DNA of 64,000 nt, taken from assembly GCF_020172685.1 (NCBI RefSeq), contig NZ_CP083986.1, positions 3,873,738 to 3,937,737 on the forward strand, read 5' to 3'. Positions within the stretch are counted from its first letter, which is position 1; each line of letters opens with the position of its first letter. This document shows positions 47,738-63,550 of the stretch, in pieces. The notes beneath the pieces are model-generated. The model was given only the letters and a program-made list of their open reading frames with translations. It was not told where the DNA came from and did no database searches. Both the position numbers and the translations under genes were made by a program. The DNA comes from [Mycobacterium] nativiensis. Lineage in GTDB: Bacteria; Actinomycetota; Actinomycetes; Mycobacteriales; Mycobacteriaceae.

Positions 47738-48670
47738 TCAGCTGGAAGTCCCCGATCGCCGCTCCAACGCCTGGGCATACAGCCGCCCCGCTCGGTAGGA
47801 GGACCGGACCAGCGGACCGGCCAGCACGCCAGCGAATCCGAGCGCCTCGGCGAACGTGGTGAACTCGACGAACTCCTCGGGGTGGACCCACCGGTCGACC
47901 GGGTGATGGCGTGGAGAGGGCCGCAGGTACTGAGTGATGGTGACGATGTCGCACCCGGCGTCGTACAGATCGGTCAGCGCGGTGCGGACTTCCTCGGCGG
48001 TTTCACCCATGCCTAGGATCAGGTTCGATTTGGTGATCAGCCCGAAGTCGCGGGCCGCGGTCAACACGTCGAGGCTGCGCTGGTAGCGGAACGCCGGGCG
48101 GATCCGCTTGAAGATGCGGGGAACCGTTTCGACATTGTGTGCCAATACCTCCGGGCGTGATTCAAACACCTCATCGAGCTGAGTAGCCAACCCGTTGAAG
48201 TCCGGGATCAACAGCTCCACACCGGTATTCGGATTGAGCGCCTTGATCTGGCGGACCGTCTCCGCGTACAGCCAGGCCCCACCGTCGGGTAGGTCATCGC
48301 GGGCCACCCCCGTCACCGTCGAATAACGCAGCCCCATCGCGTGGACACTCTCGGCGACCCGGCGCGGTTCGTCACGATCCAGCTGAGCGGGTTTGCCGGT
48401 ATTGATCTGACAGAAGTCACACCGCCGCGTGCACTGCTCACCACCGATGAGGAACGTCGCCTCCCGGTCCTCCCAGCATTCGTAGATATTGGGACACCCG
48501 GCCTCCTCACACACCGTGTGCAGGCCCTCACGGTGTACCAGACCCTTGAGCTCCGCGTACTCCGGACCCATCCGAGCCCGAATCTTGATCCAAGGCGGCT
48601 TGGACTCAATCGGTGTCTGCGCGTTTCGAACCTCCAGTCGCAGCAACTTTCGGCCACCCGGGTCGATCAT
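47738..48670 (-). CDS. lipA: Lipoyl synthase, cluster-encoded copy
   Basis: This radical-SAM enzyme inserts two sulfurs into octanoyl-lysine to make lipoyl cofactor. The 310-residue product has the auxiliary-cluster motif [12 protein letters not shown] near residue 54, the radical-[11 protein letters not shown] near 80 and the C-terminal RSSY motif. ATG 48670 follows an AGGCG site; TTG 48673 is an alternative. It starts seven bases after the gene for a free lipoyl-domain protein and is last in an E1 alpha-E1 beta-lipoyl-LipA operon. The housekeeping lipA of mycobacteria sits with lipB, so this copy is probably dedicated to its neighbour. An octanoyltransferase must come from elsewhere. Confidence 0.95.
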
Positions 48671-48676
48671 CAACGC

Positions 48677-48910
48677 CTAGCTGATCGTGGCGATCGGCAT
48701 ATTTTGCTTAACGCCCTCGTCCTCGGCGACAAGAAGGGAAATCGTCCCCGACTGCGAAGCGACGATTTCCATGTCGGCCTTGTCGACCGCTACCTCCGCG
48801 ATCAGGTCGCCCTCCTCGACGTGGTCACCGTTACCGACAAACCAGGTGGATACGACGCCCTCGGCATCGGGATCATTCTCAGACATTGCGGGGAACAGGA
48901 TTTCTGCCAT
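48677..48910 (-). CDS. Free-standing lipoyl/biotinyl-domain protein
   Basis: The 77-residue protein is a single lipoyl domain (AEILFPAMSEND..., then GDLIAEVAVDKADMEIVAS) with the modified lysine predicted at Lys 44 in the VDKAD hairpin. It has no peripheral-subunit-binding or acyltransferase domain, unlike E2 subunits of 2-oxoacid dehydrogenases. It starts seven bases after E1 beta and is followed directly by lipA, so lipoylation rather than biotinylation is expected. It would accept acyl or reducing equivalents from the E1 pair. A diffusible lipoyl carrier, like glycine-cleavage H protein, is the closest analogy. Confidence 0.9.
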   Translation of the reverse strand: MAEILFPAMSENDPDAEGVVSTWFVGNGDHVEEGDLIAEVAVDKADMEIVASQSGTISLLVAEDEGVKQNMPIATIS

Positions 48911-48917
48911 CTGACTT

Positions 48918-49958
48918 CTACTTCCTCAGCATCTCGATAACGGCTGCGCGAATGCGCTCCGGCGTAGGTAGGACCGCCATTTCCAGTGCGCGTGCATAGG
49001 GCAGCGACACATCAGGGACCGCAACGCGGACTGGCGGAACCTTGAACAATGAAGGGTCTCGCTCGGTCACTCGGGCGATGATTTCGCCGGTGAGGCCGAA
49101 CGACTCGTAGTCTTCGTCGACGACGATCAGCCGACCGGTCTTGGCTACGGATTCCAGGATGGCGTCGGTGTCCAGTGGCACCAGGCTGCGCAGGTCCACT
49201 ACCTCGCAGTCAATACCCTGCTCGGACAGCTCGTCGGCCACATCGAGTGCGTGGTGCACCGACAAGGACAGTGTGACGATCGAAACGTCGGTGCCGGGGC
49301 GAACAACATTCGCCTTGCCCAGTTCGATCTCGTAAGGTTCGCGCGGCACCGAGCCGAGTGACCGGCTGGTTTTCGCCATCCACGAAAGACCCATGATGCC
49401 TTTGTGAAACATGTATACGACGGGGTTGTCGTCACGAATGGCGGCGATCATCATGCCCTTGGCATCTTCGGGCGAGCTGGGAACGACGACCTTCATCCCC
49501 GGCAGATGCGCGAAGGTACCCCACAGGCATTGCGAATGTTGCGCGCCATCGGAATACCCGCCGCCGACGGCAGTCATCAACACGAGCGGAACCTTCACGT
49601 TACCGCCGGACAGGAAGTAGATCTTGGCCATGTGGTTGTAGATCTGGTCCATGCAGACCCCAAAGAAGTCCACAAACATCAGCTCGACGATGGGGCGCAG
49701 GCCTTCGATCGCCGCCCCGACAGCCGCGCCGATGAAGGCGGTTTCCGAGATCGGGGTATCGATGATCCGTTCGGGTCCGTACTTCTCTATGAGTCCCGCG
49801 GTCTGGTCGAAGACTCCGCCAAACTTGCCGATGTCCTCCCCCATCACGAAAACCGAATCATCACGGTCCAGTTCGGAAGATATCCCTTCGACGATCGCCT
49901 TGGCGACGGTCAACTTTCGGGTGCTACGTGCGGCAGCGGTGGGCGTTTCAGTGGTCAT
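48918..49958 (-). CDS. 2-Oxoacid/acetoin dehydrogenase-type E1 component, beta subunit
   Basis: The 346-residue transketolase-like beta subunit has GEDIGKFGGVFDQTAGL near residue 40, the SETAFIGAAVGAAIEGLRPIVE block with the catalytic Glu, FVDFFGVCMDQIYNHMAK, and the C-terminal transketolase domain (VVDLRSLVPLDTDAI). It pairs with the alpha subunit to form the TPP-dependent decarboxylating or C-C-cleaving heterotetramer. ATG 49958 has GGAAG upstream. Substrate specificity (2-oxoacid, acetoin-like or diketone) cannot be decided from the sequence. Confidence 0.93.
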   Translation of the reverse strand: MTTETPTAAARSTRKLTVAKAIVEGISSELDRDDSVFVMGEDIGKFGGVFDQTAGLIEKYGPERIIDTPISETAFIGAAVGAAIEGLRPIVELMFVDFFGVCMDQIYNHMAKIYFLSGGNVKVPLVLMTAVGGGYSDGAQHSQCLWGTFAHLPGMKVVVPSSPEDAKGMMIAAIRDDNPVVYMFHKGIMGLSWMAKTSRSLGSVPREPYEIELGKANVVRPGTDVSIVTLSLSVHHALDVADELSEQGIDCEVVDLRSLVPLDTDAILESVAKTGRLIVVDEDYESFGLTGEIIARVTERDPSLFKVPPVRVAVPDVSLPYARALEMAVLPTPERIRAAVIEMLRK

Positions 49959-49988
49959 TGTCGACTTCCTGTGAGCGGTGCCTGCGGT

Positions 49989-50963
49989 CTAGACGAACTG
50001 GTAGTCCCGGGCTGTCCCGGTATCGGGAACCGGAGACTGCTTGGCGAACGCGATTGAACTTTCCACCCTGTCCACTGCCCAGGCCCTCGTCGCCGCCACC
50101 AGCTCGTCGTCGACTGCGCCGGCTTCGCGAAGGCGACTCTCATAAAGCGGGATAGGATCGAGAGCGGCAGTGCCGTCGGGATTGGGTCGGTAGACCTGTA
50201 CATCACCCTCAAAATGTCCTGACAGACGCAATGTTTCGACTTCGATAAGGGTGGGACCGCCCCCGCTTCGCGCTCGTTCAATGGCTTCACCGGCCACCTC
50301 GTAGACCGCCTCCACATCGTTGTCCTTGACGAGGGCACCCGGAATGCCATAGGCAACCGCGCGATCGGCATTGGAGGCCACACAGGTTGACTGTTCCTTG
50401 GACACCGACACACCCCAACCGTTGTCCTCCACCACGAACACCACCGGTAGATTCCAGAGTGCCGCCAGGTTGAGAGACTCGTGGAACGCGCCCTGGTTCG
50501 CCGCGCCCTCCCCGCACACCCCAAAGGCCACTTGTCCAGCCCCCCTACGTTTGAAGGCCATTCCAATGCCCACAGCGGTGGGCAGTCCCTCGGCGATGAT
50601 CCCGGAACAAGAGAAATGCACATCCTGGTCGAACAGGTGCATGTGACCACCGCGGCCCCTACCAAGTCCGTCGATGCGGCCGAAGATCTCGGCGGTCATC
50701 TTGTTGATATCGACACCCTTGGCCAGCGCCCACCCGTGCGGCCTATGCGGCCCGGTGACCGCGTCATCGCGCCGCAAGTGGGGGTAGAAGCCGGCGGGGA
50801 CTGGTTCTTGACCTGTCGAGACGTGCATCTCCCCGGGGATGAGGCCCTGAGCGATATTGAAACTGGGCTTCTTATCCGCGTGATACTCCCGGAGGATCGC
50901 TTCCTCATAGACCCGGATCAAGTACATCATCCGGTACAACTCGATTCTTACGGCACTGTCCAT
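49989..50963 (-). CDS. 2-Oxoacid/acetoin dehydrogenase-type E1 component, alpha subunit
   Basis: The 324-residue subunit has the TPP-binding motif GDG...N in the form VCGEGAANQGAFHESLNLAALWNLPVVFVVEDN (residues about 145-175). GHMHLFD near 105 and RLSGHFEGD near 250 are also present. Short length without a long N-terminal extension resembles acetoin:DCPIP oxidoreductase alpha and PdhA-like proteins. ATG 50963 has GAGGAGA seven bases upstream. It is the first gene of the E1-lipoyl-LipA operon. No E2 acyltransferase or E3 is encoded in the window. Confidence 0.93.
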   Translation of the reverse strand: MDSAVRIELYRMMYLIRVYEEAILREYHADKKPSFNIAQGLIPGEMHVSTGQEPVPAGFYPHLRRDDAVTGPHRPHGWALAKGVDINKMTAEIFGRIDGLGRGRGGHMHLFDQDVHFSCSGIIAEGLPTAVGIGMAFKRRGAGQVAFGVCGEGAANQGAFHESLNLAALWNLPVVFVVEDNGWGVSVSKEQSTCVASNADRAVAYGIPGALVKDNDVEAVYEVAGEAIERARSGGGPTLIEVETLRLSGHFEGDVQVYRPNPDGTAALDPIPLYESRLREAGAVDDELVAATRAWAVDRVESSIAFAKQSPVPDTGTARDYQFV

Positions 50964-51069: not shown

Positions 51070-51966
51070 TCAGCTGACCGCAGCAGTGACGAAAACGATG
51101 CGGTGGTAGATGTCGTCATCCGTCGCCGGCAATCCGTACCTGACGAACAGATCCGATGCTGCGAATTGTGTAGCCAGCCAGCCGTGCTCGCCAAGAAGTT
51201 CGGACAACTCCGATCGCGTAGGCGGTGCCGTCCCGCTGCCTACGGCGAGATTCACCGTGCTGCCGGCAGGGCGCGCACTATGCGCCATTGCGGATGCGAT
51301 CAGCTCGGTCAGCCCCTTATCGTCGGCGGTGTCCGCGGCGAACCGGCTACCGGAGACGCTGATCCTCGCGATGTTGTTCAACAACATCCGCTGGGTCGGC
51401 GGAGGCAGATAGGGAAGGAGTCCCTCGGCGATCCAGACCGTGGGCAGGCTTCTGTCGTAGCCGCACCGCAGCAGTGGCGTCACCCACTCCCCGATCAGAT
51501 CGGCGGCCACCGGCCTCCGTAAAGCGCGGGGTTTTGCGGACATCTGAGCCATGACCGCCGTCTTGAAATCTGTGACGCCGGGCTGATCAACCTCGTACAC
51601 AGTAGTGTCGACCGGCCATTCAGTGCGGTATGACCGGGCGTCAAGTCCGGCACCCAGAATCACCACTTGCCGGATGCCGGCGTCGGTAGCCGCCATCAGA
51701 TAGTCGTCGAAGAATTTGGTTCGGGCTGCTATCCAGTCGACTAATCGCGGTATCGCAAAACGGGTTTCGTCGTGGCTGTCGCGCTGCTCGGCGAGTCCGA
51801 TAAAGAACTCGTCACCGACCGCTCTCACCAGAGTGGCCGCGAAGAGGTCTTTGATCAGTGGGGAGGATCTGCACGTAGCCACCGCACGGGCGGCCGCTGT
51901 TTCGGTGGCGGTCAGGCCCACACCGGATGCTGGATCCCAGTCGTTGTGGTCGATGTGCTTCCCCAT
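51070..51966 (-). CDS. SAM-dependent methyltransferase, leucine carboxyl methyltransferase-like (mycobacterial paralog family)
   Basis: The 298-residue protein belongs to the large mycobacterial family of putative O-methyltransferases related to PPM1. It opens with GLTATETAAARAVATCRS and has the SAM motif QVVILGAGLDARSYRTEWP near residue 100, VYEVDQP and WIAEGLLPYLPPP near 180. It lies between the E1 alpha gene and the ferredoxin with gaps of about 105 and 50 bases, so it may belong to either unit. A role in methylating a pathway acid or phenol is possible but unproven. Confidence 0.9.
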   Translation of the reverse strand: MGKHIDHNDWDPASGVGLTATETAAARAVATCRSSPLIKDLFAATLVRAVGDEFFIGLAEQRDSHDETRFAIPRLVDWIAARTKFFDDYLMAATDAGIRQVVILGAGLDARSYRTEWPVDTTVYEVDQPGVTDFKTAVMAQMSAKPRALRRPVAADLIGEWVTPLLRCGYDRSLPTVWIAEGLLPYLPPPTQRMLLNNIARISVSGSRFAADTADDKGLTELIASAMAHSARPAGSTVNLAVGSGTAPPTRSELSELLGEHGWLATQFAASDLFVRYGLPATDDDIYHRIVFVTAAVS

Positions 51967-52018: not shown

Positions 52019-52348
52019 TCACTGCTGAGCTTTCGGTCGTACTCCAGACTTGCGAACACAGACATCACCTTGGACACGGGCCTGGCAGGCAAGCCGGACG
52101 GAGCGAGTCCTGCGTACCAGAGCGGGCACAAGCTGCAATGTGTCCTGTTCGAGTTCGCCGACCTCTGATAGCTGGTTCCCACCGGTGAGCACCTCTACCC
52201 AGCAGATTGAACAGGTGCCGTCGCCCCCGCAAAGTGACGGCCACCGATATCCGCTTCGCAGGGCCGCGCCCATGATGGTTTCACCGTCGTCGGCCTCAAG
52301 AACGATGTGACGCGGTTCGACGGTGACCCAATGTTTTTCGGCGGGCAT
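52019..52348 (-). CDS. [2Fe-2S] ferredoxin
   Basis: The 109-residue ferredoxin binds its cluster through CGGDGTCSIC (Cys-x5-Cys-x2-Cys, residues about 40-49) and a distal Cys in RLACQ. The x5 spacing is typical of adrenodoxin or oxygenase-type ferredoxins. Its ATG lies three bases after the Rieske oxygenase stop, so the two are coupled and it is the probable electron donor. No ferredoxin reductase gene is visible in the window. Confidence 0.92.
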   Translation of the reverse strand: MPAEKHWVTVEPRHIVLEADDGETIMGAALRSGYRWPSLCGGDGTCSICWVEVLTGGNQLSEVGELEQDTLQLVPALVRRTRSVRLACQARVQGDVCVRKSGVRPKAQQ

Positions 52349-52351
52349 CTC

Positions 52352-53674
52352 CTACTTCGAAAGGTACTCGGACAGCACGCGATGCAGGTTGGCGACGTTG
52401 CCGTCGGGGCGGCCCCAGACCGGACCGCGGTAGCCGATGGAGTGCACACCGCGCTGCCACACGGGCAAGTTTGTCAAGTCCTGCATGAGCACCGCGCCCC
52501 ACGCCTTGGTGTCACGCCAGTCCGGATAGAACTCACTCTCCAACGCCGGACGTTCAGCGCCGTCTGCGAACTGCTTCAGATAGTAGGCATCGAACAGACA
52601 CTCTTCGTGATTCCGCCCGTTCGGACGGAACCTGAAGATCAATGCGTTTCCGGCGTTGCAGGGAATGGTGAAGTTGGGAAACACGTTCCACAGTTCGCCG
52701 GCGAGCAGTTCCGAATCATCAAATTGACTGAGATCGATGCCCTCGGCCGCGGACTGCTGGCGGCGGATATCGGCGAAGAAGGATCCCATCGAGACGTCCT
52801 CGGGGAGCGCTTTGACCGTATCCATCAGCGAGTTCGCCATGTCGACGTCTCCTTCGTTGATGAAGTCGAACCCACCCAGGTCTGAGAGCAAGGCCATCAG
52901 CACATCGGAGCGATCACCACCGTCCTCCAGGCGTGGACTCGATCTGCCCATGTTGCCGGGTTTGATCCGATGCATCCCGTGGTCACCGTGTTGTTCGTAG
53001 ATCATCCCGGTGTCGTCGAAATACCTCAGCGCCTGCGGGTGTGTCCCGATCGCGTGGTAGGTCTCGATAAATGCTTCGTGGCACAGTTTCCAGTTAGCGG
53101 CGATGACGGTGGTCCGTTTGCGGGTGCACGTCATCTTGTCGATGCCATAGTGTTCGACATGGCCCCGCACCGGGCCCAGGAACTCATCCAGCGATACTGC
53201 GTCGGTATTCATGTTGATGAACACGAAGCCGGCCCAGACTTCGGCTTTGCATTCGGGTAGTTGCAGCGCCTCAGGAGAGATGGCATCCTGATCGAAATCC
53301 TGCGGATCGATGACCTCGTTCAACGAGCCGTCGAGATTCCAGCACCAGGAGTGAGAACGGCAACGCAGTTCCGCGCACGACCCACTGCCCTCCTTCAGGC
53401 GCATGCCCCTGTGCTGGCACGCATTGTGGAAGGCCCTGATCTGTCCGTCCTTGCCACGCACGATCAGAACTGACTGATCGGCAATTGTGTACTCGCAGTA
53501 GTCGCCAGGGTTCTGCACCTCTTCAACTCGGCAGGCGACCTGCCAGGTCTGCGGCCAGAGCTTCTCGTTCTCCAGCTGGGCGAACTCCGGCGAAATGTAC
53601 CGGTCACGTATACCGAATTCCGCCCCGGAGCTGCGGTACCCACAGCTGGTCCCGCATTCTGGTCTTGTTGTCAT
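52352..53674 (-). CDS. Rieske non-heme iron oxygenase, alpha subunit
   Basis: The 440-residue ring-hydroxylating-type oxygenase has a Rieske domain with CQHRG near residue 85 and CRSHSWCW near 105 (CxH...CxxH), and a catalytic domain with the iron ligands in NWKLCHEAFIETYHAIGTHPQ near 190. QDLTNLPVWQRG closes the fold near 405. No beta subunit is adjacent, suggesting an alpha-only trimer. Candidate reactions are hydroxylation or dealkylation of a ring or amine substrate. It is coupled to the ferredoxin. Upstream lies AACTAGTT, shared with the amidohydrolase at 53970-55187. Confidence 0.93.
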   Translation of the reverse strand: MTTRPECGTSCGYRSSGAEFGIRDRYISPEFAQLENEKLWPQTWQVACRVEEVQNPGDYCEYTIADQSVLIVRGKDGQIRAFHNACQHRGMRLKEGSGSCAELRCRSHSWCWNLDGSLNEVIDPQDFDQDAISPEALQLPECKAEVWAGFVFINMNTDAVSLDEFLGPVRGHVEHYGIDKMTCTRKRTTVIAANWKLCHEAFIETYHAIGTHPQALRYFDDTGMIYEQHGDHGMHRIKPGNMGRSSPRLEDGGDRSDVLMALLSDLGGFDFINEGDVDMANSLMDTVKALPEDVSMGSFFADIRRQQSAAEGIDLSQFDDSELLAGELWNVFPNFTIPCNAGNALIFRFRPNGRNHEECLFDAYYLKQFADGAERPALESEFYPDWRDTKAWGAVLMQDLTNLPVWQRGVHSIGYRGPVWGRPDGNVANLHRVLSEYLSK

Positions 53675-53969: not shown

Positions 53970-55187
53970 TCAGGAGATGCCCAGGAGCTCAGCTGCCGTG
54001 CCACCGTAGAACTTCGACTCCTGTTCCGGGGTGATGCCGCCCAGCACCGCCCCGAATGTCTTCAGCGGGTCGGCGAAGCCCTCGCTGTGTGGCCAGTCAC
54101 TTCCGAACATGACGTTGTTCTCAAGGCCACCCGTTTCGATGTAGGTGGCGATGGGTTCCATCGGGTTCACCGTGCTACGAAAGTGGTCGAGGAGGTACTC
54201 ACTCGGCTGCCGCTTGAGTTGGACCGAGTGCCGGCGCGCGATTGCCTCGTAGCCATAGGAGATATCAAGGCCGGGGCCGTTCACGACGCTACCGGTGCTT
54301 CCCGGGATGCCTTCGCCGCTCATACCGATGAGTCCGTTGATCCAGCCCGCGGTGAGCTCCACGGTCGCGAACTTGAGTGCCGGGAACCTGTCGAAGACAC
54401 CGTTGAGAATCAAGTCCGCCGCAGCTACCTGGACGCCCAGGTGTGAGAACGTCATATCGAGGGCAGTGAACAGCGGGTCACCGGCATCGACGAGCCAGCC
54501 CTCCTCGAGGCCGCTCGCGCGGACGTCGCCGTCCTGGATGTGGAAGATCGGAACGATTCCGTTGTCCAGGAACGCCTTCCATGCGCGGTCGTGGTCGGGG
54601 TGAGACATTCGCCGCCCGTCGACCAGACCGTATGAGACCAATGCGGCCTTGATGCCGTTGCTTCCCAGGTAGGCCAGTTCGTTCTCCAGCCAACCCTGAT
54701 CCCCACCGCGGAGAGTGACGTGGCCCGTCGGCTCCAGACGCCCGCCGCCCTCCTGCCGAACGGCTACGGCCCAACGGTTCCAGGCGGTCAGATTCGCGCG
54801 AATGATATCGACTCGGTCATGCACATAGCGACCCCACACCGCACCGAAGTGTGGATACAGGATCGACTTGTCTACGCCGATCTCATCCAGCTGACCGACC
54901 CGCGCCTTGGCATCAATGCAAGAGGCCGGCATGTCTGCAACGTAGTCGATTTCAGCCGGCTTTCTGTCCTTCCAGTTCTGCCACGGGCTGAAGAAGGACA
55001 CGAACCCGTCCTCCGGGACCGTCTTCGCGTAGATCCACATCTGCTGATTGGACACCCGCGACCACAGCCACGGATAGCCGAGCTCGTCCCGCGTCATCTC
55101 AAGCGCGAGATCCTTCTTGTCGGGGTCGCAATAGTCCAGCCACATGTTCGGGTATTCGAACAGATGCTGGTCGAAGTCGAAGATCAC
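53970..55187 (-). CDS. Amidohydrolase-2 family metal-dependent hydrolase/decarboxylase
   Basis: The 405-residue TIM-barrel protein is of the ACMSD/gamma-resorcylate decarboxylase superfamily. It starts with IFDFDQHLFEYPNMW, where the usual metal motif DxHxxE/P reads DQHLFE. It has FHIQDGD near 205, FATVELTAGWI near 270 and the C-terminal GSDWPHSEG near 350 carrying the conserved Asp. GTG 55187 is chosen because GGAGGG lies five bases upstream. Family members decarboxylate or hydrolyse aromatic and cyclic acids; the actual reaction is unknown. A second paralog lies at 60990-62201. Confidence 0.88.
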   Translation of the reverse strand: MIFDFDQHLFEYPNMWLDYCDPDKKDLALEMTRDELGYPWLWSRVSNQQMWIYAKTVPEDGFVSFFSPWQNWKDRKPAEIDYVADMPASCIDAKARVGQLDEIGVDKSILYPHFGAVWGRYVHDRVDIIRANLTAWNRWAVAVRQEGGGRLEPTGHVTLRGGDQGWLENELAYLGSNGIKAALVSYGLVDGRRMSHPDHDRAWKAFLDNGIVPIFHIQDGDVRASGLEEGWLVDAGDPLFTALDMTFSHLGVQVAAADLILNGVFDRFPALKFATVELTAGWINGLIGMSGEGIPGSTGSVVNGPGLDISYGYEAIARRHSVQLKRQPSEYLLDHFRSTVNPMEPIATYIETGGLENNVMFGSDWPHSEGFADPLKTFGAVLGGITPEQESKFYGGTAAELLGIS

Positions 55188-55241
55188 GATGGCCCTCCGT
55201 TTGTAGTGGCGCAATATGTATGCGCTGATGTGCTAGACCCA

Positions 55242-55318: not shown

Positions 55319-56461
55319 TCAGAAGCCCATGCTGCGCCCGATGAGATCCTTCATGATCTCGGTGGTTCCGCCGTAGATCGTCTGAATCCGGGCGTCGACG
55401 AAGTCCTTGGCGACCTTGTACTCGTTCATGTAGCCGTAGCCACCGTGCAGTTGCAGGCAGGAATCCATGACGCGGTTTGCCAGTTCGGTGCACCACCACT
55501 TGGCTTTTGCGGCGTCGACGGCGGTGCACTCATTGTCCAGCACGCCCCGTAGACAGCGATCGACGAACTGCTCGGCGATATCGAGTTCGGTGTCCAACTC
55601 GGCCAACACGAACCTATTGTGCTGAAAGCTCCCGATGCTCTGCCCGAACGCCTTGCGGTCCTTCACGTACTGCAATGTCTGACGAAAGGTCTCACGGGCA
55701 CCCGCGATCGCAGCGATCGCAATGGACAGGCGTTCGGACGGCAGGTTCGCCATCAGGTGATAGAAGCCACGGTTCTGCTCGCCGAGAAGATTCGCCGCGG
55801 GAACCCGAACGTCGGCGAAGTGCAGTTCCGCGGTGTCCTGGGCGGGTTGACCGATCTTGTCGAGTTTGCGACCGCGTTCAAAGCCTGCCATTCCGCGCTC
55901 GACCACTAGGAGCGAGAAGCCCTTGTGGCCGGCCTGGGGATCGGTACGTGCCACCACGATGATGAGGTCGCTGTTTATCCCCGCCGAAATGAATGTCTTG
56001 GAGCCGTTGAGAATCCAGTCGCCGCCGGAGCGCACCGCAGTAGTTCGGATGCCCGCCAGATCGCTACCAGCACCTGGCTCACTCATCGCGATGGCACCGA
56101 TCAGTTCACCGGCTACGAATCCGGGCAGCCAACGTTGTTTCTGTTCGGAAGTGGCTAGTTCCTTGAAGTACGTTCCGACGATATCGTTGTGCACGCCCAA
56201 GGCCGGCGTCAAGAAGCCGAACTTCGCAAGCTCTTCGACCACGACCGCGTTGAACCGGAAGTCATCCGAGCCGCCACCGCCGTATTCCTCGGGCATGTTG
56301 AAGCCAATCAAGCCGTAGCGCGCGGCCGCCACATAGGCGGACCTGTCGACGATCTTGTCGTGCTCCCACTTGGCGGCGTTCGGGGCAACCTCCCGCTCGA
56401 TGAACTGGCGGGCCGTCTGCCGCAGCTGTTCATGCTCAAGGTCGAAGATCAATCGCTTCAT
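55319..56461 (-). CDS. Acyl-CoA dehydrogenase
   Basis: The 380-residue FAD enzyme shows IGAIAMSEPGAGSDLAGI near residue 120, WILNGSKTFISAG near 150 and the C-terminal QLHGGYGYMNEYKVAKDFVDARIQTIYGGTTEIMKDLIGRSMG, where the catalytic-base region is typical of short- or medium-chain ACADs. ATG 56461 has GAGGAAC upstream. It is separated from the CoA ligase gene by about 95 bases and is probably the next step after activation. The acyl substrate is unknown. Confidence 0.94.
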   Translation of the reverse strand: MKRLIFDLEHEQLRQTARQFIEREVAPNAAKWEHDKIVDRSAYVAAARYGLIGFNMPEEYGGGGSDDFRFNAVVVEELAKFGFLTPALGVHNDIVGTYFKELATSEQKQRWLPGFVAGELIGAIAMSEPGAGSDLAGIRTTAVRSGGDWILNGSKTFISAGINSDLIIVVARTDPQAGHKGFSLLVVERGMAGFERGRKLDKIGQPAQDTAELHFADVRVPAANLLGEQNRGFYHLMANLPSERLSIAIAAIAGARETFRQTLQYVKDRKAFGQSIGSFQHNRFVLAELDTELDIAEQFVDRCLRGVLDNECTAVDAAKAKWWCTELANRVMDSCLQLHGGYGYMNEYKVAKDFVDARIQTIYGGTTEIMKDLIGRSMGF

Positions 56462-56555: not shown

Positions 56556-58223
56556 TCAGCTCGTCTCGGCCACTGGAAACCGGTAGTTCTCGAACTGAGC
56601 ACGGAGGGTCTTCTTGCTGAACTTGCCGACACTCGTCTTGGGTACGACGTCGATGAATTCGACTCCATCGGGTATCCACCACTTGGCCACGCGCGATTCC
56701 AGGTGCTCGACGATCTCCTCGACTGTCAGCGACTCGCCCGCCTTCACGACGACGCAGGCCAACGGCCGTTCCACCCAGCGATCATGTGGTATCGCAATGA
56801 CAGCGGCTTCGGAAACCTTGGGATGCGCCATGATCTCGTTCTCCAGTTGCACCGAGCTAATCCACTCACCACCGGATTTCACGAGATCCTTACTGCGGTC
56901 GACGAGGAGCACAGAGCCGTATCGATCGCACACCGCGACGTCACCGGTGCTGAGCCAGCCGTCCCCGGTGAACGCTGCGTTGTGGTCATCGCTGTGGTAG
57001 TAGGAGCGTGCGATCCATGGACCCGACACTTGGACCTCGCCCGTGGTGTCGTTGTCCCATGGCACTTGCGCACCGGTACCGGGATCGACCACCCGGAGAT
57101 CCACCAACGGAACCGGCGGACCCTGGCGAGCATGCGCGTCGGCGCGCTCTTCCTCGCTACATCCGCTGTGCTGTGTCCGTGGTGTGCATACCGTGGCAAT
57201 GGGGCTGGTCTCGGTCATCCCCCACACCTGTGTCACGGGTATGCCGATCACGTCCAAATACTTCTGCGACAGCGCTTTCGGCACCGCCGATCCACCACTG
57301 AGGACGAGCCGCAGCGCCGAGAGGTCGTAGTCGTCCAGTAGCGGCGCCGCGCTCGTCCAGATCGTGGGGACCGCCGCGGTGACGGTGACCTTGTTCTCGG
57401 CTAGCAGCCCGAGTAGCGCTTCGGGGCTCATGTTCGGACCAGGTAGCACCAGGGCGGTACCGGTGAGCAGTGCTGCGTAGGGGAGTCCCCACGAGTTGGC
57501 GTGGAACATGGGCACGATCGGCATCACGACATCCCGCTCGGCCAGCCCCAGTACATCGGCGGCGAGCGCTGCCAACGAATGCAGCACAGTGGAGCGATGG
57601 GAATAGGCCACGCCCTTCGGATTTCCGGTGGTTCCGGAGGTGTAGCACATGGCCGCCGCCGCATTCTCGTCGGCGATGACGAAATCACCCTCGTACGGTT
57701 CGCTGATAGCGAGGAGTTGGTCGTACTGCACGACCCTCGGGCTGTCGGGGATCTCTTCGGCAGATCCGTCGTCGATGACCACGAAGTACTTCACCGTCGA
57801 TAACTGGTCTGCCAGCGGCCACAACACCGGAAGCAGCGACCGGTCGACGAACATGATCTCGTCCGCTGCGTGGTTCACGATGTAGACGATCTGCTCGGGG
57901 AAGAGCCTGATGTTCACGGTATGCAGAACGCGGCCGGTGCAGGGAGCGGCAAGGTACAGCACGAGGTGCTGTTCGGTGTTCCAGCAGAACGTCCCAATCC
58001 TGGCGTCGCCGCCGATGCCGAGCGTATCGAAGGCCGTCGCCAGCTGCCGGACCTGCCGGCACACGGCCGAGACGGTGGATGTCGACACGGTACCCCCAGC
58101 GGTGGCGGTGACGACATTCTTGTGGCCGAAGTACCGCTCGGCACGATGAAAGATGCACGGCAGCACCAGCGGACGGTCCTGCATTAGTCCAAGCACGGCA
58201 TCCTCTTCAAGCTCTTCCGGCAA
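56556..58223 (-). CDS. Acyl-CoA ligase (AMP-forming)
   Basis: The 555-residue ANL-superfamily enzyme has the P-loop YTSGTTGNPKGVAYSHRS near residue 190, WGMTETSPIA near 340, GWLSTGDVAVCD near 435 and the C-terminal lysine motif in VPKTSVGKFSKKTLR. The GLMQDRPLVLP N-terminus is typical of medium-chain fatty-acyl-CoA ligases (FadD-like). TTG 58223 is proposed as start because GGAGGG lies six bases upstream, 17 bases after the aldehyde dehydrogenase stop; later GTG or ATG codons are possible. The tight spacing suggests aldehyde is oxidised to acid and then activated. Confidence 0.93.
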   Translation of the reverse strand: MPEELEEDAVLGLMQDRPLVLPCIFHRAERYFGHKNVVTATAGGTVSTSTVSAVCRQVRQLATAFDTLGIGGDARIGTFCWNTEQHLVLYLAAPCTGRVLHTVNIRLFPEQIVYIVNHAADEIMFVDRSLLPVLWPLADQLSTVKYFVVIDDGSAEEIPDSPRVVQYDQLLAISEPYEGDFVIADENAAAAMCYTSGTTGNPKGVAYSHRSTVLHSLAALAADVLGLAERDVVMPIVPMFHANSWGLPYAALLTGTALVLPGPNMSPEALLGLLAENKVTVTAAVPTIWTSAAPLLDDYDLSALRLVLSGGSAVPKALSQKYLDVIGIPVTQVWGMTETSPIATVCTPRTQHSGCSEEERADAHARQGPPVPLVDLRVVDPGTGAQVPWDNDTTGEVQVSGPWIARSYYHSDDHNAAFTGDGWLSTGDVAVCDRYGSVLLVDRSKDLVKSGGEWISSVQLENEIMAHPKVSEAAVIAIPHDRWVERPLACVVVKAGESLTVEEIVEHLESRVAKWWIPDGVEFIDVVPKTSVGKFSKKTLRAQFENYRFPVAETS

Positions 58224-58239
58224 AACGAGCCCTCCGGTG

Positions 58240-59685
58240 TCAACCCGGCAGCGCGATCGACTTCGCCTCCAGGAACTCTGCGAAGCCCTCCGCACCGAGA
58301 TCCCGCCCGAGACCACTCTGCTTGTAGCCACCGAACGGCGTATCTACCGCCAGCCAGACCGCACCGTTGATTCCGACCGTGCCGGTGCGCAGACGTCGTG
58401 CGACGCCTACGGCTCGGTGGGTATCGCTGCTGTGCACGGCGGCCGACAGCCCGAAGACACTGTTGTTGGCGATTCTCACTGCGTCGTCATCATTCTCGTA
58501 AGGGATGACCGCGAGGACGGGGCCGAAGATCTCCTCCTGCGCGATCACCGCATCGGGGTCGACGTCACAGAACAGCGTAGGTTCGACGTAGTAACCCACC
58601 GGCATGTAATCGGGCCTGCCCCCACCGACGACCAGGCGGGCTTCCTGCTTGCCCTTGTCGATAAGCCTGAGGATCCGCTCTCGCTGACGCGCATTCATCA
58701 CCGGTCCGACAATCACATCGGGATCGGTGGGATCGCCACAGCGCAGCGCCTCGAACGCGGCTTTTGCGACTGCCACACCCTCGTCGTAGCGGCTGCGCGG
58801 CAACAGCAGCCGCGTGGTCAACGCGCAGCCCTGACCCGCGTGTGCGCAGACGCCAGCGATCTGGGCAGCCAACGACGGCAGGTCCGCGTCATCAAGGATG
58901 ACGTTCGCGGATTTGCCTCCCAGTTCCAGGCAGACTCGCGTCACATTGTCGGCTGCCGACGCCATGATGCGCTTCCCGACGCCGGTGGATCCGGTGAAGT
59001 GGATTAAGTCGACCCTGGGGTCTTGTACCAGCACTTCACCGAGCAGCGGGTCCGCGCCTGTCACAACGTTGACGACGCCGGCGGGGATATCGGTTCGCTC
59101 GACGATAATTCGACCGAGCTCCGTACCGCTCCATGGGGTGTCGGGGGACGGCTTCAGGACGATGGTGCATCCCGCGGCCAGCGCCGCGGACAGTTTGAAC
59201 ACGTTCGACGGCAGTGAATAGTTCCACGGCGTGATCGCCGCAACCACGCCGATCGGCTCCCGAAGCACCGTACGCGCAGATGTCACGCCGGCCAACGTGT
59301 CTCGCGCTGAGATCTGGACCTCGTAGGGATAGTTGGTCGCAAGATCGGCCCAGTAGGAAACCGCATCCAGCATGGTGTCGAGCCAGATCGAATGCGTCAG
59401 CGCGACCGGGACACCGGCCTCCTGGACCAGGATATTGCGCAGCTCTTCCTGTTCGGCGTACAACCCGTCGCGAAACTGCCGGAGGCAGTGAGCACGGAAT
59501 TCGTGATCACGTGACCAAGTCGAGTTGTCGAAGGCTTCCCGCGCCGAAGCGATCGCGATATCGGCGTCGGCGCGGCTGCAATCCGGCGCCTCGCCGATAC
59601 TCGCTTCGGTCGCGGGATTGATATTCTGATAGGTCCGACCGCCCGCCGCCTGACGCAGCACGCCGTTGATCAGCAAGCTCGTCAT
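58240..59685 (-). CDS. Aldehyde dehydrogenase, NAD(P)-dependent
   Basis: The 481-residue enzyme has TPWNYSLPSNVFKLSAALAAG near residue 150, the NAD-loop FTGSTGVGKRI near 230, the catalytic Glu in LELGGKSAN near 255 and the catalytic Cys in HAGQGCALTTR near 285. ATG 59685 follows GGAGG by six bases. It is operonic with the CoA ligase. The 216-base gap upstream (59686-59901) shows no gene and probably holds the promoter. Confidence 0.94.
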   Translation of the reverse strand: MTSLLINGVLRQAAGGRTYQNINPATEASIGEAPDCSRADADIAIASAREAFDNSTWSRDHEFRAHCLRQFRDGLYAEQEELRNILVQEAGVPVALTHSIWLDTMLDAVSYWADLATNYPYEVQISARDTLAGVTSARTVLREPIGVVAAITPWNYSLPSNVFKLSAALAAGCTIVLKPSPDTPWSGTELGRIIVERTDIPAGVVNVVTGADPLLGEVLVQDPRVDLIHFTGSTGVGKRIMASAADNVTRVCLELGGKSANVILDDADLPSLAAQIAGVCAHAGQGCALTTRLLLPRSRYDEGVAVAKAAFEALRCGDPTDPDVIVGPVMNARQRERILRLIDKGKQEARLVVGGGRPDYMPVGYYVEPTLFCDVDPDAVIAQEEIFGPVLAVIPYENDDDAVRIANNSVFGLSAAVHSSDTHRAVGVARRLRTGTVGINGAVWLAVDTPFGGYKQSGLGRDLGAEGFAEFLEAKSIALPG

Positions 59686-59901: not shown

Positions 59902-60330
59902 CTACTTCTTGCCCGTGAAATAGGCTTCGACGTCGGGCAACTGGGAGAGACCCTCCAGTAGGCCGCGCGGGTCGAAGTAGTCCGTCCACCGGGAAATCTT
60001 GCCGTCGCGGAGCTCAAAAACCCCGACCACCGGGACGCGCAGGATCACCTCACCCGCCTGGGTGCTACCGACGTCAACCCGCTCGGTGAACACCACCCCG
60101 TCAGTACCCTCGGCGATGTGCAGCAGGTCGATGTTCATGTTGTAATCGCCGAACACCTCGCCGCTCATCTCGTGCTTGGACACGATGTCTTCGATGCCCA
60201 CCGAGGGCGGGAATCCCGTGTTCTCCCACACAGCGTCATCGGTCATGGTCGCGCGCAGGTGTGCCGGCACTGCGGACAGCGGCTGCTGCATGCCATCGAT
60301 GAATCTGCGGACGACGGCCTCATTGTTCAT
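59902..60330 (-). CDS. Limonene-1,2-epoxide hydrolase-like (SnoaL/NTF2 fold) protein
   Basis: The 142-residue protein has the LEH pattern ERVDV (Arg 84, Asp 86), PVVGVFELRDGKISRWTDYFD (Asp 117) and WENTGFPP (Asn 37). Arg-Asp-Asp and Asn of the LEH active site are present, but the catalytic Tyr position appears to be Trp 35. It may be an epoxide hydrolase, a related isomerase or a binding protein. ATG 60330 has AGGAG seven bases upstream. In the 219-base gap upstream, AAATTCAGAT (60522-60531) repeats a motif found before both amidohydrolase genes. Confidence 0.82.
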   Translation of the reverse strand: MNNEAVVRRFIDGMQQPLSAVPAHLRATMTDDAVWENTGFPPSVGIEDIVSKHEMSGEVFGDYNMNIDLLHIAEGTDGVVFTERVDVGSTQAGEVILRVPVVGVFELRDGKISRWTDYFDPRGLLEGLSQLPDVEAYFTGKK

Positions 60331-60549
60331 GTCATCTACTCCTGTTCTGTGGTGCTGTGAAAGGGACGAACGGGCTGCAGGCCCGGACTCAACCACGGTG
60401 TGTGCGTCCACATCCCGTGCCGATCGGCGGGAGCCCGCGAGGTACCGGGCCTGTTGGTGTTTCAGCCTCAAGGTGGTTGCCATGAGTCTGCTTCTGCCGG
60501 TGCCACCAACGTAAGAGGCGTAAATTCAGATAGAGCGCTGCGCCACTGT

Positions 60550-60987
60550 CTAACCCAGCGTGTCAAACGATCTCGACTGCGCCTCAACATCTGGAAGCCA
60601 GTTCACAAGAGTCACTTCATTGGGGATCGTGACGAAATCAGGCCTCATCGCCATGCCGACCTTCAGCGCCGGGCGGCCCGGAATGTGGCCGCCCAGGCGT
60701 ACTTCCGGGGCGTCTTCGAGCTCGACGAGGACGAAGGTATACGGAACCGGAAATGCCGCGTGTACCTGATGTTCGGCCACGGTCCACGACACCAGCCACG
60801 CCTTCGGACCAACCACCTTCCACTCTGTCGTCCATGACCGGCAGGTATGGCAGTAGGACCGCGGAAGATGCAGTACCACACCGCAGTTGGCGCAGACGCA
60901 GACGGCGATCTCCCCCCGTTGTGCGGCCAGCCAGAACCCTGCTGTGTCCGGGTCGTTGGTCACCGGTAGCAGCGGCATGTCGCTCAC
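60550..60987 (-). CDS. DUF35 OB-fold protein with zinc ribbon
   Basis: The 145-residue protein has an N-terminal rubredoxin-like zinc ribbon (CANCGVVLHLPRSYCHTC, two CxxC pairs, residues about 32-49) and a C-terminal acyl-CoA-binding OB-fold (YTFVLVELEDAPEVRLGGHI). DUF35 proteins partner thiolase-fold enzymes, as ChsH2 does with the Ltp2 aldolase in steroid side-chain breakdown. GTG 60987 lies two bases after the amidohydrolase stop, so the genes are coupled. Two thiolase-like genes lie just upstream. Confidence 0.92.
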   Translation of the reverse strand: MSDMPLLPVTNDPDTAGFWLAAQRGEIAVCVCANCGVVLHLPRSYCHTCRSWTTEWKVVGPKAWLVSWTVAEHQVHAAFPVPYTFVLVELEDAPEVRLGGHIPGRPALKVGMAMRPDFVTIPNEVTLVNWLPDVEAQSRSFDTLG

Positions 60988-60989
60988 AG

Positions 60990-62201
60990 TCAGGTGAGCT
61001 GTTCGAGCTTGGCAACGTCCATGTTGAACAGCGACGCGGCGTTACGCCACAGAATCTTCTCCTTTGTCGAGTCGCTGACCCCCTTCAGCCCTTCGTTAAT
61101 CGAGTGATCGATCTCGGCCTTGTCCAGGCACGTCTGGTGCGGGTAGTCGGTCTCGAACAGCAGGTTGTCCTCGCCGATGGCCTCGATATGCCACGGCTGA
61201 AGATCCTCGTACCAGTAGTTCGCGTACACCTGCCGACGGCAGTAGTCGCTGGGCAGCATGCCATCCTTGTCGAACTCCGGACGTTCAAGCCACGGCTCGT
61301 ACTTCTTGAAGTGAAAGTCCAGCGCCTCCAGCAGGAACGGAATCCAACCGATTGCGCTTTCAACCGATACGAACCGCAGGTTCGGGTAGCGCGCCAGAAC
61401 GCCCGACATCAACAGATCGGCCAGCGTGATACCGCTCTCCAGGAAGAAGCAGGGCGTGAGGCGGGCGAGCGTGGCGCGCCACCCCTCCACCCTGGTTCGC
61501 TCGTCATTCATGTGGGCGCCCAAATCCCCGCCACCCACGTGGAAGCTGATCGACAGTCCAGTGGCTTCGGCCGCAGCCCACATGCGATCCCAGTGGCGAT
61601 CACCCAACAGCGGCTGCCCATGCTGATGCGGCTTACCTGTCGACACGAGTCCCTTGTGGCCTGCGGCTGCGCAACGCTCGATCTCAGCAACCGCCGCATC
61701 CACATCCCAGTATGGGATCAACGCCAGAGAGAGCAGCCGGTCCGGGGCGATGGAGCTCCATTCCAACAGGAAGTCGTTGTATGCCTGCAACGCGGCAGTT
61801 TGGAACTCCAGGGCATCCGCGCCCGCGGCGGCGAAGATGTTCGGCCCGACGAACCCGAGGTTGGGGAACAACGCGGCAGCCTGTATTCCGTAAGCATCCA
61901 TCACCTCCAACCGCGCCTTGGCGTCGAATGCCGAAGGATGCATCGACGAGAAGCGCTCTGCGTAATCGGGGAATCGCGGCGAGCGAATTGGCTTGCCGTC
62001 CTCATCCGGCACCATGATGCAGGTTCCCACCGTGAACACGGGTTGACCGTTCATGCACCAGAACTCGCCCTGGCGCTCGTCAATCCACTTCACCTCTGGG
62101 ACAAGATTTCCCCAGCGCTTCTTGGACATCCGGCTGGTCCAGAGATCGGGCGGCTCGGTAATGTGTGTGTCAGTGTCGATGATCAATGTAGAAGCGGCCA
62201 T
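60990..62201 (-). CDS. Amidohydrolase-2 family metal-dependent hydrolase/decarboxylase, second copy
   Basis: The 403-residue ACMSD-like TIM-barrel protein has the metal motif DTDTHITEPPDLW at residues 9-21 (DxH), SFHVGGG near 205, FVSVESAIGWIPF near 270 and ETDYPHQTCLD near 340 with the final conserved Asp. It is closer to the canonical family than the copy at 53970-55187. ATG 62201 follows GGAGGAATC. It is coupled to the DUF35 gene. The reaction is unknown. Confidence 0.9.
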   Translation of the reverse strand: MAASTLIIDTDTHITEPPDLWTSRMSKKRWGNLVPEVKWIDERQGEFWCMNGQPVFTVGTCIMVPDEDGKPIRSPRFPDYAERFSSMHPSAFDAKARLEVMDAYGIQAAALFPNLGFVGPNIFAAAGADALEFQTAALQAYNDFLLEWSSIAPDRLLSLALIPYWDVDAAVAEIERCAAAGHKGLVSTGKPHQHGQPLLGDRHWDRMWAAAEATGLSISFHVGGGDLGAHMNDERTRVEGWRATLARLTPCFFLESGITLADLLMSGVLARYPNLRFVSVESAIGWIPFLLEALDFHFKKYEPWLERPEFDKDGMLPSDYCRRQVYANYWYEDLQPWHIEAIGEDNLLFETDYPHQTCLDKAEIDHSINEGLKGVSDSTKEKILWRNAASLFNMDVAKLEQLT

Positions 62202-62326: not shown

Positions 62327-63550
62327 TTAAGTACCGACGACAAATGTCGCGACAGTAGTGACAGACCCACCGATGTTCAGCAGCCCCACCTTTCGGGCGT
62401 TGGGCACCTGGTAGTCCCCGGCCCGGTCGGTGACCTGTCGGGCACCGTCGAGCAGCATCCGCACGCCGGTGGCTCCCACGGGGTGCCCAAGTCCGAGCAA
62501 GCCACCGCTGGGGTTGATCGGTAGTTCGCCGCCAGGCTCGATGACGCCGTCTTCGATGGCCTGCCAGGACTTTCCGGGAGGTGTGATCCCGAAATGGTCG
62601 ATGGCAAGGTACTCCGATACCGAGAAGCAGTCGTGCGTCTCGATGAGGTCCAGATCGGCCGGCCCGCTGCAGCCGGCCCGACGATAGGCGTCCAGGATCG
62701 CCTGGCGCAGATGGGGGAATACGTACTCGTCTTCGGCGCTCGAGGTGAGCTTGTCTTCCAACAACATCGTTCCTGTCCGATGCCCCCACCCCAGGATCCG
62801 CGGCACGCTCTCCAGTGGCACCTTGTGATGGCGGGCCCAACTCGATGCGTAACGTTCGGAGGCAAGGACGATCCCCGCCGAACCGTCGGTGATGCGGCTG
62901 CAGTCCTGGCGCCGAAGCTGCCCGGCCACCACGGGATTCTGGATGTCGTCTTCGTAGAACGACTCGCTGGTCAGCTCCCAGTCCCGGGTCTGTGCACGAG
63001 GGTTCCGGCGCGCATTGGTGATGTTGATCTCGGAGATCCGGCCCAGGTGCCGGTGGTCGATACCGTACCGGAGTTCGTACTCCTGCCCGATACGTCCGAA
63101 CATCGCCGGCCAGGGGAACGGTTCGTCGATGACCTCGCGCCCAACCCAGGCGGCGCAATCCAGCCTGCGTCCTGCCTCCTGTCCGCCGATATTACGGAGC
63201 ACTTCCACACCGACGACCAACGCGGCGTCGTACCTTCCACTTTCGAGATCGGCCATCGCGGCCAACGCGGCCATACTGCCCGAGGCGCAAGCTGCTTCAT
63301 GACGTGAACTCGGCTTACCGGCAAGGGCCGGATCGACGGCCGCCACTAGTCCGCCGAGGTGACCCTGCCCGTTGAAGATCTCCCCAGCGAAGTTACCAAC
63401 GTGAGTGACGCCGATATCGCACGCATCGATCCGCGCATCGTCGAGCGCTCCGACAACCGCGCCCTCGACAAGTGGAAAGACGTTGCCGTCAGGCGCCTTC
63501 TGCGCGAAGTCGGATTGCCAGCCGCCCAGTATGTAAGTCGCCTTTGTCAT
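62327..63550 (-). CDS. SCP2-thiolase-like protein (acyl-CoA thiolase or aldolase)
   Basis: The 407-residue thiolase-fold protein has the nucleophile region HEAACASGSMA near residue 87 and the GLGHPVGATG His motif near 355. The second active-site Cys of biosynthetic and degradative thiolases (CxGGG) is absent: the equivalent is LLNIGGSVTTV. That pattern is typical of SCP2/Ltp-type proteins, some of which are retro-aldolases when bound to a DUF35 partner, and one is encoded nearby. Start ATG at 63550. It follows another thiolase-like gene by about 50 bases. Confidence 0.88.
   Translation of the reverse strand: MTKATYILGGWQSDFAQKAPDGNVFPLVEGAVVGALDDARIDACDIGVTHVGNFAGEIFNGQGHLGGLVAAVDPALAGKPSSRHEAACASGSMAALAAMADLESGRYDAALVVGVEVLRNIGGQEAGRRLDCAAWVGREVIDEPFPWPAMFGRIGQEYELRYGIDHRHLGRISEINITNARRNPRAQTRDWELTSESFYEDDIQNPVVAGQLRRQDCSRITDGSAGIVLASERYASSWARHHKVPLESVPRILGWGHRTGTMLLEDKLTSSAEDEYVFPHLRQAILDAYRRAGCSGPADLDLIETHDCFSVSEYLAIDHFGITPPGKSWQAIEDGVIEPGGELPINPSGGLLGLGHPVGATGVRMLLDGARQVTDRAGDYQVPNARKVGLLNIGGSVTTVATFVVGT

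Follow-up and report, generated by a model that had tools for sequence, protein, structure and literature searches.

A stand-alone lipoyl carrier paired with an E1 enzyme in a mycobacterial catabolic cluster: a putative disassembled dehydrogenase of the 2-oxoacid/acetoin type

A tight operon of four genes, running head to tail on the minus strand in the order E1alpha-E1beta-LIP-LipA, is present in a 64,000-nucleotide stretch of [Mycobacterium] nativiensis DNA (contig NZ_CP083986.1, here C1, C1:3873738-3937737 of a single-contig genome of 5.28 Mb; hereafter the window). It encodes the two subunits of an E1 enzyme with a thiamine pyrophosphate (TPP) site, a stand-alone lipoyl domain of 77 amino acids (aa), here called LIP, and a lipoyl synthase, and is accompanied by neither an E2 (acyltransferase) nor an E3 (lipoamide dehydrogenase) gene. 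With about even confidence, its product can be considered a disassembled enzyme of the 2-oxoacid/acetoin-dehydrogenase type, whose E1 would cleave an acyloin (or a 2-oxo acid) and reductively acylate free LIP, with housekeeping E2 and E3 acting in trans. The operon, its recurrence in other actinobacteria and the predicted lipoyl fold of LIP are established; the lipoylation of LIP, the substrate class, the supply of E2 and E3 in trans, and the roles of a neighbouring aldehyde dehydrogenase (ALDH) and of LipA are what we infer. The genes, modelled from coding-score calls and therefore with approximate starts, are as follows:

49989-50963, minus strand: E1alpha, 324 aa, TPP-binding, with the loop GHFEGDVQVYR (PF00676, 216 bits; motif alignment and tree)
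48918-49958, minus strand: E1beta, 346 aa (PF02779, 134 bits; PF02780, 120 bits; NF006667, 337 bits, cut-off 321; matches E1 beta of pyruvate dehydrogenase, PDH, and branched-chain 2-oxoacid dehydrogenase, BCKDH, in the PDB)
48677-48910, minus strand: LIP, stand-alone lipoyl domain, 77 aa, with Lys44 in DKADME (PF00364, 58 bits, cut-off 22)
47738-48673, minus strand: LipA, 311 aa, the lipoyl synthase encoded in the cluster (radical SAM; TIGR00510, 329.5 bits, cut-off 310; PDB 5exi, 587 bits)

The genes are separated by 30, 7, and 3 bases, the last gap becoming 6 if LipA begins at the ATG that follows the TTG. The E1 families PF00676, PF02779, and PF02780 are all matched, the GEGA...EDN motif of the TPP site is present, and the nearest solved structures for E1alpha and E1beta in a PDB search are the PDH and BCKDH E1s. 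Residue 44 of LIP is a lysine, and Asp43 and Lys44 are invariant in an alignment of 28 carriers, comprising the LIP of the window and 27 chosen from its 90 relatives. The AlphaFold2 model of LIP is a complete barrel (pLDDT 91.6), and a fold search with it returned lipoyl domains such as 1ghj (TM 0.83/0.82), with biotin carriers also listed, mostly at lower rank. The best matches of LIP are the lipoyl parts of E1beta and E2 models, the best in NCBIfam being that of NF008854 (PRK11892), with 49 bits against a whole-protein cut-off of 454. By its sequence LIP is thus a lipoyl-type rather than a biotinyl-type carrier, as the preliminary description of this DNA had supposed. Biotin instead of lipoate on Lys44 is thought unlikely on motif and kinship, although PF00364 covers both kinds of carrier. 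A truncated E2 is likewise thought unlikely, given the complete barrel and the similar length of most of the 90 relatives, which were sought among proteins of 0.55-1.75 times the query length, a range in which full E2s could not have shown up. No GcvH model was matched by LIP at E<=0.001 in scans of Pfam/NCBIfam-type families.

LipA retains the CX4CX5C, CX3CX2C, and RSSY motifs. A second lipA lies at 2.11 Mb in the same genome, its protein being 79% identical to that of the cluster; a tree of 18 rows gave no resolution as to the origin of the cluster LipA, the cluster copies needing three changes. Standing beside LIP, it probably meets an extra demand for lipoate under induction.

The whole-genome search with PF00198 located E2 catalytic domains at three places only, 2.11, 1.69, and 1.48 Mb, the window spanning 3.87-3.94 Mb. 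The 30 matches of the TIGR01350 search all fall outside the window, the sole lipoamide dehydrogenase above the cut-off being encoded at 0.58 Mb. As both searches spanned the whole genome, including the next 30 kb on the right-hand side, an E2 or E3 gene just beyond the edge of the window, which the preliminary description had named as a finding that would refute it, is ruled out. No subunit-binding domain (PF02817) was detected among the 20 cluster proteins scanned, and no AcoC-type E2 (NF011457) was matched in this genome at E<=1e-80, with 12 of the 85 first-look candidates scored.

A scan of named-species genomes with the LIP alignment yielded 72 loci, 71 of them actinobacterial by title and one from a metagenome-assembled genome (MAG) called Acidobacteria. 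E1alpha, E1beta, and LIP occur together in 62, E1beta and LIP in six, LIP only in two, E1alpha and E1beta in one, and none of the three in one. The trio is adjacent on one strand in 61 of the 62, the exception being L047 with a split E1beta. Since the loci were drawn by LIP alone, adjacency in 61 of 72 is more than chance, and the E1 pair with its free carrier can be regarded as a self-standing unit, as originally proposed. The claim that the carrier has its own LipA fared less well: it holds for the mycobacterial loci and that of Rhodococcus opacus, while the trio mostly recurs without LipA, which was found in only five of the 72 loci, all mycobacterial. In an even draw across the phylum LIP was matched at E<=1e-18 in 7 of 396 genomes (this one included), with E1alpha and E1beta matches adjoining in all seven, so that the module is scattered and uncommon. 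Short E1beta genes (about 190 aa) stand beside LIP in Pseudonocardia dioxanivorans, Amycolatopsis echigonensis, and a Brevibacterium MAG (L028, L029, and L038), and are decayed or split copies.

At least 1 kb of downstream sequence is available for 53 of the 61 adjacent-trio loci and at least 3 kb for 46. An E2 scoring above 50 bits was found in one of the 53, L060, where it is a full E2 within a second E1-E1-E2 operon. No true E3 was seen near the trios: matches of 39-56 bits occur in L027, L028, L029, and L074, and those of L027, L028, and L074, which were scanned, are Pyr_redox proteins without the E3 dimerisation domain, that of L028 with Reductase_C. AcoC-type hydrolases were also considered as neighbours and rejected; matches occur only in L040 (31 bits), where the protein is an alpha/beta hydrolase without a lipoyl domain, and in L042 (47 bits, unscanned). 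The 280 flanking proteins fall into 197 clusters, among which no dedicated flanking gene common to several genera was seen; one upstream-gene cluster is shared by 28 loci (27 of the 72 and R. opacus, whose member is an IclR regulator), the flanks are otherwise varied, and the next largest cluster spans six loci, five of them from Amycolatopsis. The flank scan comprised 60 proteins, mostly cluster representatives, with 25 of 90 families listed, and a rare partner could escape it. The E2 catalytic domain is present in three to eight copies in each of 31 genomes with LIP loci, and an E2 in trans is therefore at hand in all 31. Most of these domains sit in open frames of more than 300 residues, and a few short frames (e.g., of 280 and 292 residues) are ambiguous; a 234-residue E2 frame of Glaciibacter (G216) comes from a second E1-E1-LIP set, a more distant one with a detached E2 catalytic domain (E2cat).

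Relatives that keep such a detached E2cat were found on plasmids. An E1alpha match was found in 700 plasmid records, of which 60 were listed and 12 examined in addition to that of R. opacus. E1alpha, E1beta, a lipoyl protein, and a separate E2cat are encoded in 7 of the 12, from the alphaproteobacteria Mameliella, Sphingomonas, Roseibium, Paracoccus, and Phaeobacter and the haloarchaea Natrialba and Halobaculum; in Mameliella no intact E1beta is annotated, the protein being in two pieces. Directly after the E2cat, four of the five alphaproteobacterial cousins carry a gene of the LplA/LipB fold (L104:12994-13692, L108:10977-11687, L109:10974-11678, and L142:8989-9687), a candidate private attachment enzyme for the free lipoyl protein. 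Lipoylation genes thus travel with E1-LIP modules, LipA in mycobacteria, R. opacus, and Mameliella (about 3 kb off the module in the last), and LplA/LipB-fold genes in the four loci named. A plasmid of Thermus thermophilus encodes E1alpha, E1beta, and an 82-residue lipoyl protein (L107:7937-8185) beside TRAP transporter genes, without an E2. In Aminobacter, Chelatococcus, and Pseudoroseomonas the E2, called acetoin dehydrogenase, is a fusion of lipoyl and alpha/beta-hydrolase domains, and a Sinorhizobium plasmid has a full E2 with LpdA and LipA.

A module that links the two kinds of set is on plasmid pR1CP1 of R. opacus 1CP, in the order E1alpha-E1beta-LIP-E2cat-LipA. Its LIP is 71% identical to that of the window. 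Its E2 protein of 271 residues matches PF00198 only and has no subunit-binding domain; it is 52% identical to the catalytic domain of DlaT from the [M.] nativiensis genome, compared with 38% for BkdC and 31-37% for eight other E2 domains, and reaches 309 bits with the SucB_Actino model, under the whole-protein cut-off of 423. This likeness suggests that a LIP-bearing module recruited a copy of a housekeeping E2 domain, which became the R. opacus E2cat, and hints at DlaT as the partner elsewhere.

In the E1alpha tree (87 rows, 86 of them different, as the L060 row is duplicated; clades read from the part of the tree listed) the actinobacterial trio E1alphas, including that of the Acidobacteria MAG, form a clade with 99/99 support, within which the R. 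opacus protein groups with the mycobacterial ones (100/92). The seven E2cat cousins are their nearest relatives and are joined to them at 91/90. The TPP motif is retained in the E1alphas of the tree. The GHFEGD loop is found in the trio E1alphas, in all seven actinobacterial AcoC-linked E1alphas and in one of three alphaproteobacterial ones (Chelatococcus), while the Bkd-type E1 of the same genome has HTTSDD, and Aminobacter, Pseudoroseomonas, and Sinorhizobium have GHSxSD. A loop held in common with the AcoC-linked enzymes makes acyloin cleavage the likelier E1 chemistry, though no more than likely.

Taken together, the relatives with a detached E2cat and the DlaT-like domain of R. opacus point to a split machine of the 2-oxoacid/acetoin-dehydrogenase type served by E2 and E3 in trans, rather than to new chemistry. 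Of the substrates put forward in the preliminary description, an acyloin, a diketone, or a 2-oxo compound would each be plausible. In this scheme the surrounding alicyclic or terpenoid-like pathway would supply an acyloin or 2-oxo acid to E1alpha/E1beta, whose TPP intermediate would pass the acyl group and electrons to the lipoyl group of LIP, kept lipoylated on induction by the cluster LipA and the octanoyl transferase of the cell. LIP would then bring its acyl group to a housekeeping E2 of DlaT type, whose catalytic domain would transfer it to CoA, and LIP itself would be reoxidised by the housekeeping lipoamide dehydrogenase (Lpd). If the substrate is an acyloin, the released aldehyde might go to the ALDH of the cluster, and the Rieske enzyme could make the alpha-hydroxyketone, both roles being guesses. 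In textbook form the 2-oxoacid dehydrogenases are giant machines that channel the intermediate by means of a tethered lipoyl arm. The arm, E1 and, in the cousins, E2cat would here be naturally separated as small proteins, which would allow a direct test of the need for tethering, and would illustrate a way for several private E1s of catabolic pathways to draw on a single housekeeping E2/E3.

Several observations weigh against this reading. Each mechanistic step is predicted from sequence. The support that unites the trios with the cousins is moderate, and the stand-alone-lipoyl sets of Thermus (L107) and Glaciibacter (L135) fall outside, so that the split may have more than one origin. The loops also vary, being GHFMGD or GHFVGD in the seven cousins, GHYVGD in Thermus, and GHSKSD and GHSRSD in the AcoC-linked L138 and L143; GHFEGD is accordingly a correlate and no proof of acyloin chemistry. 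An AcoC-type E2 and an E1-LIP module occur together in each of three genomes (G307, G328, and G338), E1s beside AcoC being seen in G307. The partnership with DlaT is extrapolated from one plasmid, in a comparison with the DlaT catalytic domain of the [M.] nativiensis genome and nine other E2 domains, and among the actinobacterial trio loci an E2cat is linked only in R. opacus (and in L060, in a separate operon). Finally, dlaT is broken by runs of N in the present assembly.

The alternative that survives best, although it appears doubtful, is that a thiolase-like, hydrolase or redox partner takes the acyl group or the electrons straight from acyl-LIP or dihydro-LIP, by analogy with GcvH and LbpA, which are free carriers in their own systems. 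E1-LIP would then be a two-component, E2-free lipoyl enzyme whose diffusible 77-residue carrier serves an acceptor other than an E2, and would add one more lipoate system to those of the 2-oxoacid, acetoin, glycine-cleavage, and sulfur-oxidation kinds, a proposal just as tentative. The rarity of linked E2 genes (1 of 53) and the upstream IclR-cluster gene of 27 of the 72 loci, amid otherwise varied flanks, are in its favour, and sulfur oxidation offers known examples of free lipoyl carriers that have special partners, according to the available part of PMC6067878. No dedicated acceptor was seen in the flanks, however, where beyond the regulator only the six-locus, mainly Amycolatopsis cluster stands out, and the seven cousins and R. 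opacus retain an E2cat, that of R. opacus resembling a housekeeping E2.

An E1 that acts as a 2-oxo acid dehydrogenase on some branched or cyclic 2-oxo acid from the pathway, within the same scheme for LIP, E2, and E3, is rather improbable. The nearest solved structures are PDH and BCKDH E1s, and E1beta scores above the cut-off of the PDH E1beta subfamily NF006667; nevertheless, little can be read from the nearness to PDH in the PDB, as no acetoin dehydrogenase E1 chain was among the matches listed, and the loop is of the AcoC-linked kind, unlike that of the Bkd-type E1 of the same genome.

Marginally less probable still is an ordinary acetoin dehydrogenase (AcoAB) that acts on acetoin with an E2 from elsewhere. 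The loop shared with AcoC-linked E1alphas fits it, as does the naming of some relatives by jgi as acetoin:2,6-dichlorophenolindophenol oxidoreductase (others are called pyruvate dehydrogenase E1); moreover, a putative lipoyl synthase gene adjoins acoA and acoB in the Acinetobacter acetoin cluster, as stated in the accessible portion of PMC6595428, and the R. opacus module lies near an annotated tetramethylpyrazine oxygenase gene. An argument for acetoin built on the latter genes was dropped, PMC4647570 describing, in the part available, TpdE and an acetamide intermediate. Against acetoin stand the missing AcoC match in this genome at the threshold given above and the mycobacterial context of acyl-CoA, retro-aldolase-like, and Rieske genes, and the coexistence of AcoC and E1-LIP in the three genomes mentioned makes it improbable as a common substrate there. 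A relic, that is, a decaying operon which has lost its E2, is very improbable: the short E1beta genes of L028, L029, and L038 and the split one of L047 would suit it, but the trio is adjacent in 61 loci, the E1alphas of the tree retain the TPP motif, and all 28 aligned carriers the lipoyl lysine.

Compared with the known systems, E1-LIP would work like acetoin and 2-oxoacid dehydrogenases yet fails to show the dedicated E2 that defines them. With acetoin dehydrogenase (AcoA, AcoB, AcoC, and AcoL) it has in common the E1alpha/E1beta TPP enzyme, the lipoyl carrier, the GHFEGD loop (8 of the 10 AcoC-linked E1alphas examined) and, in some cases, a neighbouring lipoyl synthase. However, the four AcoC E2s scanned (L129, L138, L139, and L143) fuse lipoyl and alpha/beta-hydrolase domains, whereas the carrier described here is a lipoyl domain by itself, encoded without any E2 or E3, and the E1alpha of the window, despite its GHFEGD, groups with the split-E2 cousins (91/90). 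The 2-oxoacid dehydrogenases (PDH, BCKDH, and 2-oxoglutarate dehydrogenase, OGDH) share the E1 families, the lipoyl fold, and the lysine motif, but the present system has no E2 core, subunit-binding domain or local E3. In the E1beta of NF008854 (PRK11892) an N-terminal lipoyl domain is fused, while here it is separate. The plasmid E1-E1-lipoyl-E2cat operons have the same stand-alone lipoyl protein after E1beta and differ in keeping a detached E2cat and, in four of the five alphaproteobacterial ones, in the LplA/LipB-fold gene. These plasmid operons are annotated in the records, and no description of them was found in a search of the open-access literature; 2-oxoacid dehydrogenase operons of Haloferax have reportedly been studied.

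GcvH and LbpA (of the sHdr system) are likewise single lipoyl domains unfused to an E2, and LbpA clusters also carry lipoylation genes, as the available part of PMC6067878 indicates; LIP differs in matching PF00364 and pairing with an E1, and no glycine-cleavage (gcv) or hdr protein is among the 20 cluster proteins scanned. The same part of that paper counts five characterised lipoate-dependent complexes, namely three 2-oxoacid dehydrogenases, acetoin dehydrogenase, and glycine cleavage, in addition to LbpA of sulfur oxidation, and the accessible portion of PMC10332631 adds nothing on free E2-type carriers. No title on an operon of E1 with a stand-alone lipoyl protein was among the matches listed from the open-access literature, and one may be in print elsewhere; the lipoate-using mycobacterial catabolic cluster is without a description in the papers found.

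The operon closes this cluster of about 20 genes, which is largely conserved across six mycobacterial species. One strand carries isochorismatase-domain, short-chain dehydrogenase/reductase (SDR), and TetR genes, and the other two IclR-type genes, an acyl-CoA ligase, two thiolase-like genes, an amidohydrolase, DUF35, SnoaL/limonene-epoxide-hydrolase-like, ALDH, ligase, acyl-CoA dehydrogenase, amidohydrolase, Rieske, ferredoxin, and (optionally) methyltransferase genes, followed by E1alpha, E1beta, LIP, and LipA. The part upstream of the operon within the window is made up as follows:

51070-51966, minus strand: S-adenosylmethionine (SAM)-dependent methyltransferase, TIGR00027 type; optional, as it precedes E1alpha in five of the seven mycobacterial loci, two lacking it
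52019-52348, minus strand: 2Fe-2S ferredoxin (PF00111)
52352-53674, minus strand: Rieske oxygenase (PF00355/PF00848; carnitine monooxygenase oxygenase, 101 bits)
53970-55214, minus strand: amidohydrolase 1 (PF04909; 4dzi, 53 bits; DitZ, 37 bits)
55319-56461, minus strand: acyl-CoA dehydrogenase (PF00441/PF02770/PF02771)
56556-58331, minus strand: acyl-CoA ligase A (PF00501)
58240-59685, minus strand: aldehyde dehydrogenase, candidate taker of the E1 aldehyde product (PF00171, 464 bits)
59902-60483, minus strand: SnoaL/limonene-epoxide-hydrolase-like protein (PF07858, PF12680)
60550-60987, minus strand: DUF35/ChsH2-like protein, which may partner the lipid-transfer-type thiolase (PF01796, PF12172; 9myr_B, 48 bits; 6ok1_B, 44 bits)
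60990-62201, minus strand: amidohydrolase 2, DitZ/PtmU3-like (PF04909; 8uyr, 116 bits; 6omp, 111 bits)
62327-63550, minus strand: thiolase-like protein 1 (NF004936, above cut-off)
63602-64000, minus strand: thiolase-like protein 2 (lipid-transfer type), C-terminal part, continuing past the window (whole protein L009:2340-3563; 6ok1_A, 281.5 bits)

Thiolase-like protein 2 and the DUF35 protein match both chains of 6ok1, a lipid-transfer protein with ChsH2(DUF35), which is presumably the steroid side-chain retro-aldolase, and amidohydrolase 2 matches DitZ (116 bits) and PtmU3 (111 bits); nothing on DitZ was among the literature matches listed. From these likenesses the cluster would serve the catabolism of an alicyclic or terpenoid-like acid.

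Seven mycobacterial loci were compared: the window, M. hippocampi (L018), M. vanbaalenii BC8_1 (L019), M. pinniadriaticum (L020), M. vinylchloridicum (L021), M. palauense (L022), and M. elephantis (L023). All genes from ligase B through LIP were found in the window and five further mycobacterial genomes (G018, G043, G068, G178, and G184), one amidohydrolase being moved in G068; the stretches of G018 and G043 start inside TetR, and the SDR and isochorismatase positions lie outside their view. In M. palauense, the seventh species, the part of the cluster within 10 kb is present. LipA follows LIP in six of the seven loci, the contig of L020 stopping 144 bases past the LIP match. An E1alpha at E<=1e-90 occurs in 6 of 198 genomes of the same genus, this one included, a rare and patchy distribution. 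The G+C content is 61.7% over 47.7-64.0 kb of the window and 68.3% over 1-47.5 kb, in line with acquisition of the cluster; no tRNA gene that might mark an island end is present in the window. MlaD/MlaE-type genes (PF02470, PF02405; read as mce-like) of low G+C content, at L009:12279-19860, start about 3 kb past the cluster's isochorismatase gene and may import the substrate.

It is also worth recording that the runs of N in the dlaT region (C1, about 2112500-2117200; L119:5530-5629, 6996-7095, and 8338-8496) are probably an assembly artefact. The edge of an N run there bears a 19-base sequence which we take to be the Nextera transposase end, and window:35-53 is a perfect match to the same 19 bases, possibly through adapter carry-over in the assembly.

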